A DNA stretch of 37,132 bases from Calditrichota bacterium (GTDB lineage: Bacteria > Calditrichota > Calditrichia > RBG-13-44-9 > J075): the NCBI GenBank assembly GCA_020434205.1, contig JAGRBF010000104.1:34423-71554 (forward strand). The letters run 5' to 3'. Positions 12,204 to 18,914 of the stretch are shown piece by piece. A program made the translations under genes and the position numbers. Position 1 is the first letter of the stretch, and every line of letters starts with the position of its first letter. Below the pieces are notes generated by a model. It was given only the letters and a program-made list of their open reading frames with translations, made no database searches and was not told where the DNA came from.

Positions 12204-13637
12204 ATGCAACCGGATCATCACAAAAGCACTTCTCCCAGCTATCAGCGCAACCTGCTGCTGCCTTTTCTGAAAATGCTTACCGACGTGGTAGCGGTGGAAA
12301 TTGCCGTTTTGCTGGCCTATTACCTGCGTTTCTATTCCCCGCTAACCGCCGTCTTTCCGATTACCAAGGGGATTCCGGAATTCCGCACTTATTTTGGGTT
12401 CTCGGTCTTTTTGTCCCTGACCATGGTGACGTTGTTCAATTACTTCCGAGCCTACCGGAGCCGCTACTTCAGCAGTTTCAATCAGGATCTCGCTGCTATT
12501 TTCAAGGCCGGCTTTCTGGGAATTCTGGTGGCGATGAGCGGCGCTTTTCTCTACCGTGATGTTTCTTACTCCCGTCTGGTTTTTGCCCTCATTTTCGTGA
12601 ATATCAATGTGCTGCTGGTGATAACCCGCTACCTTTACCACAAGATCAAAGACCATTTTCTGAGGAAGGGGTTCAATAGCATAGAGGTGTGCCTGGTGGG
12701 AACCCCTCGGAATCTGCCGCGGATTTACGCCGGGTTAAAACGGGAAAAAACCCGCAATTTCCGGGTGGTCGGTTACGTCTGCGATGGCGAGTTGCCGGAG
12801 TTGGGACTTTCCCGGCTGGGGGGGCTGGCGGATCTGGAAGACCTGCTTTCCCGCAACGGCCTGTTTTCGGGGCTGGTTATCGCCCTCGGGCAGGAAGAGC
12901 ATCACCGCATCCTGAACATCATGGCCGCTATCGAGGGAAAAAACCTGGAGCTTTTTTATGTGCCGGATATTCTGGATATCCTGACCTCCCGCTTCGAAAC
13001 CCTGGAGGTTGGGGGCATTCCCTTTTTGCAACTCAAAACCGTTCTTCTGGCCGGTTGGCAGGGGTTTTTGAAGCGCTTCTTTGATGTCGTGGTCTCCGCA
13101 ATCGCACTTTTTCTGTTGCTGCCCCTGCTGGCGGGAGTGGCCCTCCTGGTCCGCTTGAGTTCTCCCGGCCCGGTCTTTTTTCGCCAGAAGCGGGTGGGGC
13201 TGGACGGCATTGAGTTTGAGATGATCAAATTTCGCTCCATGCGCAGCGATGCGGAAGCGCAAAGCGGCCCGGTCTGGTCGGTCCCGGATGACCCGCGCAC
13301 CACCGCCATCGGAAAAATTTTAAGACGAACCAGCCTCGATGAGCTGCCTCAATTATACAATGTGTTAAGAGGGGATATGAGTTTGGTGGGCCCCCGGCCG
13401 GAGCGCCTGCACTTTGTGGAGCAATTCAGCGAATACGTTCCTCACTATCTGGAGCGCCATCGCCTGCGCAGCGGGATGACCGGCTGGGCCCAGGTAAACG
13501 GGATGCGCGGGCAGTCCTCCATCGAGGACCGAACCCAATACGATCTCTATTACATTGAGAACTGGTCGTTGTGGTTTGATCTGAAAATTTTACTGATGAC
13601 TATAATTGAGGTTATTCGCGGCGAAAATGCCCATTAA
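12204..13637 (+). CDS. Undecaprenyl-phosphate sugar phosphotransferase (polyisoprenyl-phosphate hexose-1-P transferase)
   Basis: A 477-residue initiating enzyme of the WbaP/WcaJ type. It transfers a sugar 1-phosphate from a nucleotide sugar to undecaprenyl phosphate, starting glycan assembly. Residues 1-150 contain four to five membrane segments; 155-280 form a soluble CoA_binding_3-like domain; from about 290 comes the bacterial sugar transferase domain with its re-entrant hydrophobic segment, KFRSMRSDAE, the Asp-Glu catalytic pair in SLDELPQ (D379, E380), MSLVGPRPE and GMTGWAQVNG. Length fits full-length exopolysaccharide-type transferases. It closes the plus-strand polysaccharide series. 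Which sugar is used cannot be told. Confidence 0.93.
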   Translation: MQPDHHKSTSPSYQRNLLLPFLKMLTDVVAVEIAVLLAYYLRFYSPLTAVFPITKGIPEFRTYFGFSVFLSLTMVTLFNYFRAYRSRYFSSFNQDLAAIFKAGFLGILVAMSGAFLYRDVSYSRLVFALIFVNINVLLVITRYLYHKIKDHFLRKGFNSIEVCLVGTPRNLPRIYAGLKREKTRNFRVVGYVCDGELPELGLSRLGGLADLEDLLSRNGLFSGLVIALGQEEHHRILNIMAAIEGKNLELFYVPDILDILTSRFETLEVGGIPFLQLKTVLLAGWQGFLKRFFDVVVSAIALFLLLPLLAGVALLVRLSSPGPVFFRQKRVGLDGIEFEMIKFRSMRSDAEAQSGPVWSVPDDPRTTAIGKILRRTSLDELPQLYNVLRGDMSLVGPRPERLHFVEQFSEYVPHYLERHRLRSGMTGWAQVNGMRGQSSIEDRTQYDLYYIENWSLWFDLKILLMTIIEVIRGENAH

Positions 13638-13663: not shown

Positions 13664-14887
13664 TCATTGCCCTGACTCTTTGGGGAGCATGTTCACCCCC
13701 CAAACAACCATAGCCCACCAGAAAATATTGTTTTCCAGGTCGGTGTAATAACATTGGAAAAATCCCGCCAGGAGGATTCCGGCTACCGCGGCGACCATCC
13801 CGCGGATAATGGTCCTTTGATAAGCGCTGTTTTGCGGATTGCGGTAGCCTTTGAAAGCGGAAAAAATGAGAAATCCCCACATGCCCAGCCAGGCCAGCAT
13901 GGCGGGAATGCCGCTGTTGGCGGCCAGGTTCAACATATCGTTGTGCGCATGTCCGCCGGCGTCGTAATATCCGGGATGTTTGTAGATTTCGAAAACCCGG
14001 TTAAACTCTCCCGGGCCGATACCCAACCAGGGATTGGCCTTTACCATATTCCAGCCGGTGTGCCAGAGATTGAGGCGGGGGGCATTTTTGGCGGGATCCC
14101 AGATACTGGTGATGCGCTCCATAATCTCCGGCGAGACAAAAGCGGCCACCGTGCCGGCGGCGATCAGGGAGATTAACCCCCATCCAAACCAGCGGCGATC
14201 CAGCATCAGGGTAATCACGGCGATAACCACCACCAGGGCCAGCCAGGTGCTGCGGGAAAAAGTGGCGACAATGCTCAGCAAAACCAGGATTCCGGAAATT
14301 AAATAAGGCAGCTCGGGCTTTTTGTTTTTAAGGGAACCCAGAAAGGCGCTCAGCAAAACGGCGAACCCCATCATCTGGTTTCCGGCATAGGTGAGGTAAA
14401 AGTTGAACCCGCCGGTGGCGCGAAAGTGATTGCCGTAGGCGGCCAGATGTTTTCCCCGAAAATACTCCATTCCCGCAAAAAACTGCACGATTCCATAGAT
14501 CGCCACCAGCCCCAGTGAGACCATAAACACTCGTAAAGCCCGGCGCCATTGTTCTTCGGAAAGCCGTATACCGGCCAATAGAGGAACCGTTAGCATAACC
14601 CAGTCATTCTGGAAAACCGAAATCACCGAACTCATTGGACGTGGGGCAAACAGAGCGGATAACAAACGAAGCGCCCAAAAGGCGGCCATAAAACCGTATA
14701 AGGGGTTAAACCGGAAACGGCCGGTCCGCCACAACTGCCAGGCCGCAGCAAGGGTGGTGGAAACCAGGGTCATTTGCATGATGGAAAGAGACCAGGGGAC
14801 GGTGGCCAGGAAGGCGTAAAAGGAAAATGTTAACCATTGATGCGCAGGTGTGGAAAAGTCTGATTGATCGGGATGGGTATTCATCAC
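13664..14887 (-). CDS. O-antigen ligase / polymerase family protein (Wzy_C)
   Basis: A 407-residue polytopic membrane protein with about 10-12 hydrophobic segments and one large periplasmic loop. The loop has NPWLGIGPGEFNRVFEIY followed by GGHAHNDMLNLAANSG (H313-D317), the hallmark of the Wzy_C superfamily, preceded by the conserved arginine in ATFSRSTWLAL. Such proteins either ligate glycan to lipid A core, or polymerise repeat units, or glycosylate proteins; sequence does not separate these. It is convergent with the initiating transferase, 26 bases apart, and so is transcribed separately, from the AT-rich region at 14888-15197. Start ATG ATG tandem at 14887. Confidence 0.87.
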   Translation of the reverse strand: MMNTHPDQSDFSTPAHQWLTFSFYAFLATVPWSLSIMQMTLVSTTLAAAWQLWRTGRFRFNPLYGFMAAFWALRLLSALFAPRPMSSVISVFQNDWVMLTVPLLAGIRLSEEQWRRALRVFMVSLGLVAIYGIVQFFAGMEYFRGKHLAAYGNHFRATGGFNFYLTYAGNQMMGFAVLLSAFLGSLKNKKPELPYLISGILVLLSIVATFSRSTWLALVVVIAVITLMLDRRWFGWGLISLIAAGTVAAFVSPEIMERITSIWDPAKNAPRLNLWHTGWNMVKANPWLGIGPGEFNRVFEIYKHPGYYDAGGHAHNDMLNLAANSGIPAMLAWLGMWGFLIFSAFKGYRNPQNSAYQRTIIRGMVAAVAGILLAGFFQCYYTDLENNIFWWAMVVWGVNMLPKESGQ

Positions 14888-15197
14888 ATTCTTTGTCCGG
14901 GTAATGTTCGATAATTATGCGTAGCGGCACAGGGAGTTCCGGAGAAAGAGGGCTTTAGGGATAAAGTTTTTTTCCGGGATGCCGATAATGCCATCTCAAG
15001 TTCCCGAAGGTCTTTCCCCCTGTTCAAAAATGCAAATGTTTTTTAGGGTTGGGACAGAATTATCCCATTCGCGGTAAGTGTTATATCCTGGTCAAGTTAA
15101 GCAACCTTAATACTTGTCCATTCCCACCCTGTAAAGGCAAAAAAATTTCAATATATATAACTTTTCAAGCTCAGGAAACCTTTTCTTATTTTTTAAG
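14888..15197. other. AT-rich divergent intergenic region, no gene seen
   Basis: Sits between the Wzy_C gene (minus) and the promoter of the pentapeptide gene (plus). Composition becomes strongly AT-rich from about 15130. No coding frame, RNA fold or repeat could be supported. The promoter of the Wzy_C gene should be here but no convincing hexamer pair was seen on the minus strand. Confidence 0.5.
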
Positions 15198-15226
15198 TTG
15201 AAAAAATTGGATTTTTTTTTTATAAT
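15198..15226 (+). promoter_or_regulatory. Sigma70-type promoter of the pentapeptide-repeat gene
   Basis: TTGAAA (15198-15203), a 17-base T-rich spacer, and a perfect TATAAT (15221-15226). Predicted transcription start is near 15233, giving a leader of about 50 bases before the ATG at 15286. This is the strongest housekeeping promoter match in the window. Confidence 0.8.
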
Positions 15227-15285
15227 TAGGCCTCAGAAGCCTGTAGTTTGGGGAATTATACGCTATCCAACACGAAGGTATTTGT

Positions 15286-16173
15286 ATGTCCTATCACAAA
15301 TGTGCGGTCGACGGCTGCCCTGCAAAACCGATCTCTTTTACTCACTATTGCTGGCAACACGTCCCGGACAAAAAAGCTTTTCTCAAGAAACTAAAGGCCA
15401 GTATCCGCAGTTCGGTTGCGCCGGTTTCTCTGGATAAAATTGTTCTGGAAGATTTTGACATGTCCGGCCTGGATCTGCGAAGTGCTTCGTTTATGCGCGG
15501 CATTTTTATCAACGTGGATTTTTCCAACACCAACCTGACCAATGCCAATTTCAAATCCTGCTTTTTTCAGGGATGTAAGTTCCACCATGCCAAAATGGTG
15601 CAGTCGACCCTGAGCGGGGCCATCATCGTGGATTCCGAGTTTGTGGATGCCGATCTGTCCATGGTGGAAGGCAATCAGCTCAAGATCAAAAACTCGACCT
15701 TTACCAATCTGTATATCAAATCGGCCGATTTGAAAAATACGTTCTGGAAAAATGTCGAGATAAAGGCCTCCCAGGTTACCGACGGTAATTTTATGATGAG
15801 TTACTTCGACAACCTGACCGTCAACGATACCAAGCTGGATAACGCCCTCTGTTCCGGCGGCCAGTTCCACAACTGCAACTTTGTAATGAGCGATCTGATT
15901 CAGATGAACTACATCGGTTGCATTCTTGACGATTCGACCTTTAAAACCAGTCATCTGCGCAATTGTCGTTTTGCCCAGGCCATTATCCGGGATTCGGTTT
16001 TTGAAAACTGCAAGCTGAACAAACCCATTATGCGGGAAACCCAGCTGATCGGCGGCAAGTTCGTGCGCTGCACCATCACCAACCCCTCTCTGCAGCGGGC
16101 GGTGCTGATCCACAACAACCTGAATATCAAAAAGTTGGCCAACGCAGATACCGAAGGCATGGTGGTGATGTAA
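15286..16173 (+). CDS. Pentapeptide-repeat protein with N-terminal CCCH zinc-type motif
   Basis: A 295-residue protein. Residues 1-30 hold C6-x4-C11-x10-C22-x2-H25, a small metal-binding arrangement ending in YCWQH. Residues about 55-280 are pentapeptide repeats (A[D/N]LX-type, for example NTNLTNANF, SADLKN, SDLIQMNYIG), predicted to form a right-handed quadrilateral beta-helix. There is no signal peptide or membrane segment, so it is probably cytosolic. AAGG seven bases before ATG 15286 and the promoter at 15198 set the start. Some pentapeptide proteins mimic DNA and protect gyrase; nothing here proves that. A series of hairpins follows the gene. Confidence 0.88.
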   Translation: MSYHKCAVDGCPAKPISFTHYCWQHVPDKKAFLKKLKASIRSSVAPVSLDKIVLEDFDMSGLDLRSASFMRGIFINVDFSNTNLTNANFKSCFFQGCKFHHAKMVQSTLSGAIIVDSEFVDADLSMVEGNQLKIKNSTFTNLYIKSADLKNTFWKNVEIKASQVTDGNFMMSYFDNLTVNDTKLDNALCSGGQFHNCNFVMSDLIQMNYIGCILDDSTFKTSHLRNCRFAQAIIRDSVFENCKLNKPIMRETQLIGGKFVRCTITNPSLQRAVLIHNNLNIKKLANADTEGMVVM

Positions 16174-16178
16174 GATTT

Positions 16179-16270
16179 ATTCCCCGGGCTAATACGGGGT
16201 AAAAGAAAACTGCCGCCGGTTTAAAACAGGAGTTCCGGTCCTGAAAACCGGCATAAGGAAAAGATTTCCT
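16179..16270 (+). promoter_or_regulatory. Tandem stem-loops before the membrane-protein gene (possible attenuator leader)
   Basis: Three hairpins in 92 bases: CCCCG/CGGGG (16182-16199); a two-part stem GCCGGTTT/AAACCGGC (16215-16252) enclosing CAGGA/TCCTG (16227-16243); and AGGAAA/TTTCCT (16256-16270), which would hide the candidate ribosome site. The 9-mer ATTCCCCGG at 16179-16187 is identical to the 5' arm of the terminator at 16274-16282, so it could pair with the terminator's 3' arm instead. Function is inferred. Confidence 0.5.
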
Positions 16271-17995
16271 ATGATTCCCCGGCGCAATCCGGGGAATTTT
16301 TTTTATATGCTGATTCTAAACCTCCTCAACAAATACTGGCCACTCCTGGCCGCAGCATTTCTGGCAATTCTGCAGGGTTATCACTACGGCATCGGGGACC
16401 TGGCTACCTATGTCCCTTTCGTCTGGCATCATATCGACCCGCAGTATTTCTCCGGCGATTTGCTGACCAGGACCCTGGGCGATCACCCGGTTTATATCTG
16501 GCATTTGGTTGCCTTTCTGGCTCGCCTGATGGACATCCAAACCGTCTTTTTTGTCCTTTTTATTGCCCAGGTTCTTCTGCTGGCCATGGCCTATCGCTAT
16601 TTTTTTCGCACTTTTTTCTCTACCGGGGACCCGGGGTGGATTGTAATGCTCCTGATCCTGGTGACCCCAATTAACGCCGCTGCCATGGGCCGCTACGGCC
16701 TGAATCCTTATCTGTATTTCCATCCCGGGGCATTGGCCCAGGCGGCCCTGCTGTTCGGCTATTGTTTGCTGGACCGGGATCGCTGGTTGGCGGGGAGTGC
16801 GGTCCTGGGGGCCATTTTCCTGTTTCACCCGTTTACTGCCCTGTACGGCGCCCTGCTCCTGGGCTTCCGGATTCTGATCGACTTCCGGCACCAGCCGCTT
16901 TCCCTTCTCCTGATGTCGATGGCCCTGTTCCTGCTGGTTTCCGCTCCCTCCTGGGGTCCTTTTTTGTATCATAAAATCGGCGCAGGGGAAATCGCCTTCG
17001 ATAAGGCCCTTTGGCTGGAACTGGTCCGCGGCCGCATGAAGTTTTCCTTCTTCATCTCCCAATGGATTCCCGACCGTTTTATCCACCTTCTCCTCGCGTC
17101 TGCCGGGATTCTGGCTTATCATCGCCATCCCGCCTTCCGGAGATTGCTCCCCGTTCTGCTAACCGTGGCAACCGCCCTGCTGGTAATGGCCCTGGGGGAT
17201 CTTTTCTCAATAAAATTTATCCTGCAACTGCAGTTAGCCCGCAATTCTTTCCTGCTTTTTCCGGTTATCGCCGGTCTGGTGATTCATCACATCATGCACA
17301 TGCCTCCCGGGCAGTTGCGCAGTTGGCGTGCTCTGTTGCTCTTGGTGCCGCTGATCCTGATGCTGCAAACGCCGGTGGGAGACAAAACGAATCCGGCCCG
17401 ATGGCTCCTGTTAAGCATGGCTTTGCTGGGAACTATCTGGATTGTCTGGCAAGCCATGCCGCATTGGCGACGTTTTTATGTGGGACTCATTTGGGCGCTG
17501 GCCCTGGTGATGTGCGGAACCCTAGTTGTAAACCGCCTGACGGAAACGGGGCGTTTTGTTGATGAAACCGCCACCTCCCCCTGGGAACAGCTTCAGATTT
17601 TTTGTGAACGAGAGCTTCCGGTTGATGCCGTGGTAATGACCCCCATCCACCGGGAAGGGTTCCGCTCCCTCTCCAAGCGCAGTATTTTCGGCAGCTTTAA
17701 GGATGGCGCCCCCCACAATTATTCAAATAAAACCATTTTTGAGTGGTGGGAGCGGATGCAGGCCCTGGGGGTTACCCTGCCTTTTCGCCGCGACCGGTTT
17801 CCGGGGCTTTATCGGGAAAATGCGGAGAAGGTGGCCCGGCAAAACGGTATTCGATATGTGGTATACGAGAGAGGTTCGCAAAGTCCGGATGAGAGCTGGG
17901 AGGGAATACTATACGAAAATGAGGGATTTCGGATCGTCGATCTGGATGCCTTAAACCCCGGGAAAGAAAAAGATGCGGATCAGGTGGACGAGTAG
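16271..17995 (+). CDS. Large polytopic membrane protein, DUF6798-like
   Basis: Up to 574 residues. About ten to twelve membrane segments fill residues 13-440, with a polar first loop (GIGDLATYVPF...FSGDLL) reminiscent of GT-C-type enzymes. A soluble C-terminal domain follows (about 445-574), with AVVMTPIHREGFRSLSKRS and IFEWWERMQ resembling DUF6798; I hold this family name loosely. ATG 16271 has AAGGA 11 bases upstream, but its first codons are written by an intrinsic terminator stem; ATG 16307 directly after the T-run is the alternative and lacks a ribosome site. The 3' end overlaps the convergent pgpA gene by 45 bases. Function unknown. Confidence 0.75.
   Translation: MIPRRNPGNFFYMLILNLLNKYWPLLAAAFLAILQGYHYGIGDLATYVPFVWHHIDPQYFSGDLLTRTLGDHPVYIWHLVAFLARLMDIQTVFFVLFIAQVLLLAMAYRYFFRTFFSTGDPGWIVMLLILVTPINAAAMGRYGLNPYLYFHPGALAQAALLFGYCLLDRDRWLAGSAVLGAIFLFHPFTALYGALLLGFRILIDFRHQPLSLLLMSMALFLLVSAPSWGPFLYHKIGAGEIAFDKALWLELVRGRMKFSFFISQWIPDRFIHLLLASAGILAYHRHPAFRRLLPVLLTVATALLVMALGDLFSIKFILQLQLARNSFLLFPVIAGLVIHHIMHMPPGQLRSWRALLLLVPLILMLQTPVGDKTNPARWLLLSMALLGTIWIVWQAMPHWRRFYVGLIWALALVMCGTLVVNRLTETGRFVDETATSPWEQLQIFCERELPVDAVVMTPIHREGFRSLSKRSIFGSFKDGAPHNYSNKTIFEWWERMQALGVTLPFRRDRFPGLYRENAEKVARQNGIRYVVYERGSQSPDESWEGILYENEGFRIVDLDALNPGKEKDADQVDE
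16274..16304 (+). terminator. Intrinsic terminator overlapping the start of the membrane-protein gene
   Basis: Perfect 9-bp stem ATTCCCCGG (16274-16282) / CCGGGGAAT (16289-16297) with a 6-base loop, running into eight T (16297-16304). It lies 100 bases after the pentapeptide gene stop and 3 bases after the first ATG (16271) of the next gene. Confidence 0.85.
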
Positions 17996-18409
17996 CAGGG
18001 TGTAAATCCCCGCCCCAACATCGTCCATCATAATGCCCCACCCTTCGGGCAGTTTCTGAATGCTGTTGATGGGAAAGGGCTTCCAGATGTCGAACAGGCG
18101 AAAAAGGCCCAGGGCGATCAGAAAAAGCCACAGATGATGGGGCACCAACCACAGCCCCAACCACATGCCCACCATTTCATCCACCACCACCATACCCGGA
18201 TCATGTTTACCCAGGTCGCGCTCGACCATGGTGGCAGACCAGATCCCGATAGCCCCGATAAGCAAGGTAACCCCGATTAATAAAGCCGGATCTTGAGGAA
18301 GCAGGAAGTAGGCGATTAGCCAGGCCAGAATGGTTCCCGCGGTTCCCGGTGCGCCCGGGGTGTAGCCGGAACCCAGTCCGGTGGCAATAAAATAATGAAA
18401 TGCCCGCAT
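17951..18409 (-). CDS. pgpA: Phosphatidylglycerophosphatase A
   Basis: A 152-residue inner-membrane phosphatase that removes phosphate from phosphatidylglycerol phosphate to give phosphatidylglycerol. Family signatures are clear: GLGSGYTPGAPGTAGT near the N-terminus, the metal-site stretch DPGMVVVDEMVGMW and LFRLFDIWKPFPI, with four membrane segments. The frame is open to 18487, but ATG 18409 begins the conserved part and has AAAGGGA six bases upstream. It is the last gene of a minus-strand series after an SRPBCC gene (61-base gap). Its last 45 bases overlap, antisense, the end of the membrane-protein gene. Confidence 0.92.
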   Translation of the reverse strand: MRAFHYFIATGLGSGYTPGAPGTAGTILAWLIAYFLLPQDPALLIGVTLLIGAIGIWSATMVERDLGKHDPGMVVVDEMVGMWLGLWLVPHHLWLFLIALGLFRLFDIWKPFPINSIQKLPEGWGIMMDDVGAGIYTLLLVHLIRIFFFPGV

Positions 18410-18470
18410 GCAAGTATCCCTTTCAACGCAGGAACATACGGTTAGAAGGGCAAAGAAACAAGGGGTGGAA

Positions 18471-18914
18471 TCAGCCTTTACCGGCAAAGTACCGTCTGTA
18501 GATGGGCTTTCGGTAGAGAAAAAGAAGGTAAAAGAAGGGCCACATCAACCAATCCGCAAAGAAGAACGGGGCGCGAAAATTCACTTCATCGATAATCATA
18601 CTGGATTTCCCGTCTTTTACGATGCGGTGCTTGTGGTTCCAGTGTTTCAGAAAAAAGGGCAGGACCAGACCCTCATCAATAAAGAAAAATTCCTCGTCGG
18701 AAGTCTGGTTGGCGCTGATACGGCTGACCCAGGACTGTTTAAACAGGAGAAAATTAAGCTCCAGATGGATCAAATCCCCTTTTTCCATACCGTCATAGCG
18801 GACGATGCTAACCGGGGGAAAGGGGGGATTGACCCTCTTAAACAGATCCCGGGTAAACCCTTCCCGAACGCCTTGCATCGGTAGGTTTACCCGGGTGCGA
18901 ACCGATAATTTCAT
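18471..18914 (-). CDS. SRPBCC-family (START/Bet v1-like) protein
   Basis: A 147-residue protein with the layout of the COG4276-type SRPBCC group: an N-terminal strand (KLSVRTRVNLP), a middle FKRVNPPFPPVSIVRYDGM helix-strand part, and a C-terminal HWNHKHRIV...ADWLMWPFFYLLFLYRKPIYRRYF segment, seen here in pieces. Such folds form a hydrophobic ligand pocket; the ligand is unknown. It begins two bases after the ribA stop, so the two are probably translated from one message. No Shine-Dalgarno is visible, in keeping with coupling. The C-terminal aromatic helix could associate with the membrane. Confidence 0.75.
   Translation of the reverse strand: MKLSVRTRVNLPMQGVREGFTRDLFKRVNPPFPPVSIVRYDGMEKGDLIHLELNFLLFKQSWVSRISANQTSDEEFFFIDEGLVLPFFLKHWNHKHRIVKDGKSSMIIDEVNFRAPFFFADWLMWPFFYLLFLYRKPIYRRYFAGKG

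Follow-up and report, generated by a model that had tools for sequence, protein, structure and literature searches.

Among the closest described systems are terminators placed ahead of genes. In the parts of Naville and Gautheret (2010; PMC2965389) drawn on here, an attenuator filter retains terminators that have the orientation of the downstream gene, lie less than 300 nt from it and are nearer to it than to the upstream gene; the same parts mention 18 candidates in E. coli lying no more than 15 nt from a start codon, and put forward the notion that a terminator may at the same time conceal the ribosome site. In a literature search that included Calditrichota, none of the matches listed names the phylum. 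The site analysed here lies in the window, the whole 37,132-nt stretch of a Calditrichota contig whose source assembly comprises 5.6 Mb in 710 contigs, and it passes the filter as described in those parts, being 2 nt from the downstream gene (or overlapping it) versus 99 nt from the upstream gene. We favour, with reasonable but limited confidence, the reading that this site is a gene-end intrinsic terminator of a pentapeptide-repeat gene which abuts or overlaps the start of the next co-directional gene, coding for a membrane protein. The original prediction was that of a possible transcription attenuator; its terminator, position and lack of a visible promoter are retained, whereas the anti-terminator pairing assigned to a 9-mer copy is not. 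The features of the locus are as follows.

15198..15226, + strand: sigma-70-like sequence TTGAAA-17-TATAAT, consensus match 11/12, putative promoter
15286..16173, + strand: pentapeptide-repeat protein gene, 295 aa (PF13599, E 1.2e-26; PF00805, E 3.3e-17)
16179..16187, + strand: ATTCCCCGG, a copy of the terminator 5' arm, overlapping the 5' arm of hairpin 1
16182..16199, + strand: hairpin 1, 5 bp, with the 3' arm CGGGG at 16195-16199
16215..16252, + strand: hairpin 2, 8 + 5 bp, from predicted folding
16256..16270, + strand: hairpin 3, 6 bp, probability 0.85-0.89 in 12 folds, holding the candidate ribosome site AAGGA
16271..17995, + strand: open reading frame of a membrane-protein gene with a DUF6798 domain (PF20604, E 2.4e-9), start at ATG 16271 or ATG 16307
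16273..16304, + strand: intrinsic terminator, 10-pair stem at 16273-16298 with a 6-nt loop, T8 at 16297-16304

The terminator with eight T is present as predicted, a G+C-rich stem being followed directly by the T-run on the transcribed strand, with a hairpin energy of about -16 kcal/mol. It lies 99 nt past the stop codon of the pentapeptide-repeat gene (16171-16173) and on the same strand, the position expected of a gene-end terminator, and is the strongest of nine terminator-like sites in 14500-18500, a region for which shuffled sequence yields 5.6 sites on average when strength is disregarded. In a promoter scan of the same region, the sequence at 15198..15226 is the only + strand match, and it probably serves the pentapeptide-repeat gene, located ~60 nt downstream. 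From 15226 to 16307 no further + strand match to the sigma-70 consensus, the only type scanned for, is detected. T8 ends 2 nt before ATG 16307 and no promoter is visible after the terminator; the membrane-protein gene therefore requires read-through, as the earlier analysis had argued, or an unseen promoter upstream. Upstream of these genes is a polysaccharide gene cluster coding for glycosyltransferases, polysaccharide-synthesis membrane proteins, a sugar transferase and an O-antigen ligase. In one related genome (G042), a DUF6798 gene at ~9619 is found within ~10 kb of a 32% relative (L144, 361-1713) of the sugar transferase encoded at 12204-13637 of the window, a neighbourhood hinting that DUF6798 proteins and polysaccharide clusters may be connected.

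If the site is a gene-end terminator, transcription would start near 15226 and cross the pentapeptide-repeat gene, and most transcripts would stop in the T-run at 16304, as suggested by the energy of the hairpin and by T8. The membrane-protein gene would then be reached by residual read-through or from a promoter invisible to a consensus scan, and the three upstream hairpins would be ordinary intergenic structure. A distinctly unlikely alternative is that transcription of the membrane-protein gene starts from a separate promoter within or before 16174-16270, of a type missed by the scan, in which case the hairpin would fold over the 5' end of the membrane-protein mRNA and mainly lower translation, termination being incidental. 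A gene behind a strong terminator does need a source of transcript, the scan covers the sigma-70 consensus only, and hairpin 3 hides AAGGA; however, the scan reveals no candidate and a transcript started there would still meet the T8 terminator.

To see how frequent such arrangements are, we surveyed 674,353 bases from 63 stretches of this genome, with 504 called ORFs (~5.5 kb being counted twice, where L132 and the window overlap), using a hairpin score of at least 22. Twenty-one hairpins reach this score, 14 of which have a same-strand ORF end at most 99 nt upstream. The distance of 99 nt observed here is the largest of the 14, the others ranging from 11 to 66 nt. Of the 21, 4 are positioned where a called ORF begins, the window site included, although ORFs are called in their longest form and terminator/start overlaps therefore look commoner than they are. 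One of the other three, on the minus strand of contig C675 (L209, 2978-3021), resembles the window site in that its T7 runs straight into the ATG opening a long frame; it lies 21 nt past the upstream ORF, and the true start of the downstream ORF may be later. A terminator abutting the start of the next gene is uncommon in this genome, but not unique.

Position is also the point at which a regulated attenuator has to be weighed, in which read-through into the membrane-protein gene would be controlled, most plausibly by translation, a reading which we consider possible but rather unlikely. The site is the farthest of the 14 from its upstream stop and much nearer to the downstream gene, which counts against a plain terminator, and its position relative to both genes, passing the filter as given in the parts of PMC2965389 used here, argues for an attenuator. 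A plain terminator is favoured by the canonical form and strength of a hairpin lying on the strand in which the upstream gene is transcribed, by its dominance in the predicted folds at the T-run, by the 14 of 21 strong terminators situated close behind a same-strand ORF, by the L209 case and by the lack of an Rfam match described below.

The upstream stretch contributes to the case on both sides. The three hairpins said to precede the terminator are found in the minimum-energy fold of 16174-16270 (16182-16199, 16215-16252 and 16256-16270), a stretch predicted to be somewhat more structured than its shuffles (z -2.27, with 4 of 200 shuffles equally stable); when folded together with the terminator, z is -4.09 and none of 200 shuffles is equally stable. 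The proposed sequestration of a ribosome site by one of the hairpins is likewise borne out, as in hairpin 3 AGGAAA pairs with TTTCCT, thereby covering most of AAGGA at 16255-16259. The 9-mer identical to the terminator 5' arm is also where it was reported, ATTCCCCGG being present at 16179-16187 and at 16274-16282. With the copy removed, dinucleotide shuffling of the upstream stretch regenerates it in 28 of 20,000 trials; the copy is rare by chance, though it was chosen for counting after the fact. The z of -2.27, the 28 of 20,000 shuffles and the lack of a visible promoter for the downstream gene all weigh against a plain terminator.

When the RNA is folded at equilibrium up to 16304, the terminator takes up 0.77-0.99 of the ensemble for all 12 assumed 5' ends. 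At a 3' end of 16297, where most of the T-run is yet to be made, it occupies 0.44-0.96, and with 3' ends past the decision point 0.50-0.99 (16330) and 0.60-0.99 (16400), a long-range fold taking most of the remainder in the low-terminator folds at these two ends. When the upstream sequence is shuffled, the terminator is as low as observed or lower in 72 of 500 cases, and the modelled effect of the real upstream sequence on terminator folding is thus unremarkable. The copy of ATTCCCCGG at 16179-16187 pairs only with the terminator 3' arm, which is made last, and can therefore compete only once the hairpin itself can already form. The role of anti-terminator proposed for the 9-mer is not supported by this analysis, its partner lying past the decision point and the terminator dominating all folds tested at the T-run.

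The only candidate anti-terminator considered is a 5-bp pairing of CGGGG at 16195-16199 with the terminator 5' arm at 16277-16281, which needs hairpin 1 to be blocked. With hairpin 1 present, the pairing has a probability of 0.00-0.07 in eight folds out of nine; the ninth gives 0.44. In all three folds starting at 16190, which lack the hairpin 1 5' arm, it reaches 0.70-0.99 before the terminator 3' arm is made, in favour of an attenuator, but it loses once this arm is made, the terminator then reaching 0.96-0.99 with the same 5' end. In an attenuator of this type, a ribosome at the stop codon at 16171-16173 would cover the 5' arm of hairpin 1 and free CGGGG to hold the terminator 5' arm, and initiation at ATG 16271 would place a ribosome on the terminator itself. 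The folds would allow for a possible kinetic, translation-coupled switch at the terminator. That the site is a translation-coupled attenuator without a leader peptide, such that the membrane protein would be produced solely during translation of the upstream gene, we regard as very unlikely.

Whether the terminator covers the first codons of the membrane-protein gene, as had been claimed, depends on the start codon. The frame is open from ATG 16271 as well as from ATG 16307, and by eye no in-frame ATG, GTG or TTG occurs after 16307 before TTG 16460. ATG 16271 is at the foot of the terminator stem, the terminator beginning inside this codon. The claim holds for ATG 16271, in which case the hairpin lies within the first 12 codons, and fails for ATG 16307, where the hairpin lies just before the gene. 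Energies of the anti-Shine-Dalgarno duplex, -4.8 for 16271 versus -5.7 for 16307 with a median of -4.6 in 176 genes, do not decide between the two. As a ribosome-site motif AAGGA is enriched in this genome (21 versus 2.2 in shuffles) whereas GGGGA barely is (4 versus 1.55), so that the choice leans towards ATG 16271. The 11-nt spacer from AAGGA to ATG 16271 is longer than usual, one gene in the sample having the motif at that position, and the N-termini of DUF6798 homologues are too distant to settle the matter. The placing of ATG 16271 right at the stem would suit an attenuator, but the doubt over which ATG is used counts against one.

Comparison with known families and with relatives yields no counterpart of the leader. 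No Rfam family has a match anywhere in the window at gathering score, the best sub-threshold match in 15950-16500 having 19.3 bits versus a gathering score of 49.5, and a known riboswitch, T-box or other Rfam leader was rejected accordingly. A repeated element was also rejected, as a BLAST search of the leader against its own genome at E <= 10 returns 19 matches, namely itself and 18 short ones with E of 1.28 or worse; the palindrome TTCCCCGG-N3-12-CCGGGGAA occurs at one other place, after a gene and with no T-run. BLAST of 60 relatives detects no homologous leader. Some match at E <= 0.1 is obtained in 16 of the 60 genomes, the own genome included, and of the 19 matches outside it that were inspected only the one in genome G003 extends past a short run. 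A pattern scan of a sequence collection gives 65 stretches, only one of which by eye shares the flanks, that one being by length and sequence the same contig as in G003; the leader pattern has no match in viral sequences, and plasmids give no DNA or protein match.

A covariance model built from the window sequence alone, and thus from a single sequence, was searched in 40 genomes and gives 27 matches at E <= 1 in 17 of them, three being in the own genome. Outside the own genome the two best matches and a third (L213) were inspected; the two best, at 29.5 and 24.5 bits, owe their match to gene-end terminators, in favour of a plain terminator here, and the model scores 19.0 bits on the reverse strand of the window itself. 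No homologous leader is found with this structure model in the 40 genomes, a result which, together with the BLAST of 60 relatives, counts to a limited extent against an attenuator, covariation of the pairings being neither supported nor contradicted by it. The DUF6798 domain is present at E <= 0.001 in 7 of 60 genomes, the own genome included. BLAST detects no homologue of the membrane protein in the other 59 of the 60 relatives (E <= 1e-10) or in 39 of 40 genomes of the phylum (E <= 1e-5), and peptide patterns of the protein are not found in genome contigs. When 32 ORFs of the window are compared with 13 stretches by tblastn, the membrane-protein ORF is unmatched outside its own locus and no common gene order is apparent. 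In the sequences compared, the arrangement is seen in a single genome.

The G003 match is the best among the 60 relatives, positions 16205-16253 being 84% identical over 49 nt to G003:C156:14-62 (L010 14-62) with E 4.0e-6, compared with a best E of 0.040 for the reversed leader in the same 60 genomes. The matching frame of G003 ends in the tail of TIGR01367 (pyrE_Therm; E 0.0018) and is the same reading frame as in the window. A conserved RNA motif was rejected for this match, as the frame is that of a pyrE tail. It is most improbable that 16205-16253 is the decayed 3' end of a Thermus-type pyrE and hairpin 2 a leftover with no regulatory role. Besides the low E value relative to the reversed control, such a relic would be consistent with the presence of Thermus-type pyrE above the cut-off in five of six other family members, the sixth having the tail at a contig edge, and with the own genome having only a weak pyrE match, of another type. 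However, pyrE of the family adjoins an MBL-fold hydrolase gene, behind pyrF in three of the stretches read, and the pyrF/MBL-hydrolase locus of the own genome is on another contig and has no pyrE. The window frame has no family match at E <= 10, and the unreversed leader also gives E of 6.9e-4, 1.1e-3 and 2.9e-3 in unrelated places. Compared by eye with G003, the window frame has 10 of 16 residues in common and identical codons at all 10, whereas in one pair of orthologues from these two genomes only 75 of 153 identical residues have the same codon, a difference which favours a chance match of the DNA. On these sequence comparisons we lean towards chance for the 49-nt match. Thermus-type pyrE is absent from the own genome (stretches L119 and L168; contigs C644 and C3), in which an orotate phosphoribosyltransferase of another type is on a separate contig from the pyrF/MBL-hydrolase locus.

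If the site is a plain terminator, its importance is limited to annotation: equal expression of the pentapeptide-repeat and membrane-protein genes is not to be assumed, and for the latter two start codons have to be considered. Were it regulated, the site would represent a Calditrichota attenuator whose terminator stem has a start codon at its foot. Relative to the 5' terminators and attenuators in the parts of PMC2965389 used here, the window site differs in that the folds and genomes compared show no stable anti-terminator or conserved leader, in having no known signal and in being seen in one genome. It differs from gene-end terminators in lying 99 nt past the stop codon and in abutting or overlapping the start of the next gene, and resembles them in its G+C-rich stem, short loop and T-run downstream of a same-strand gene, the gene-end terminators of relatives (L211 and L212) having the same type of hairpin.
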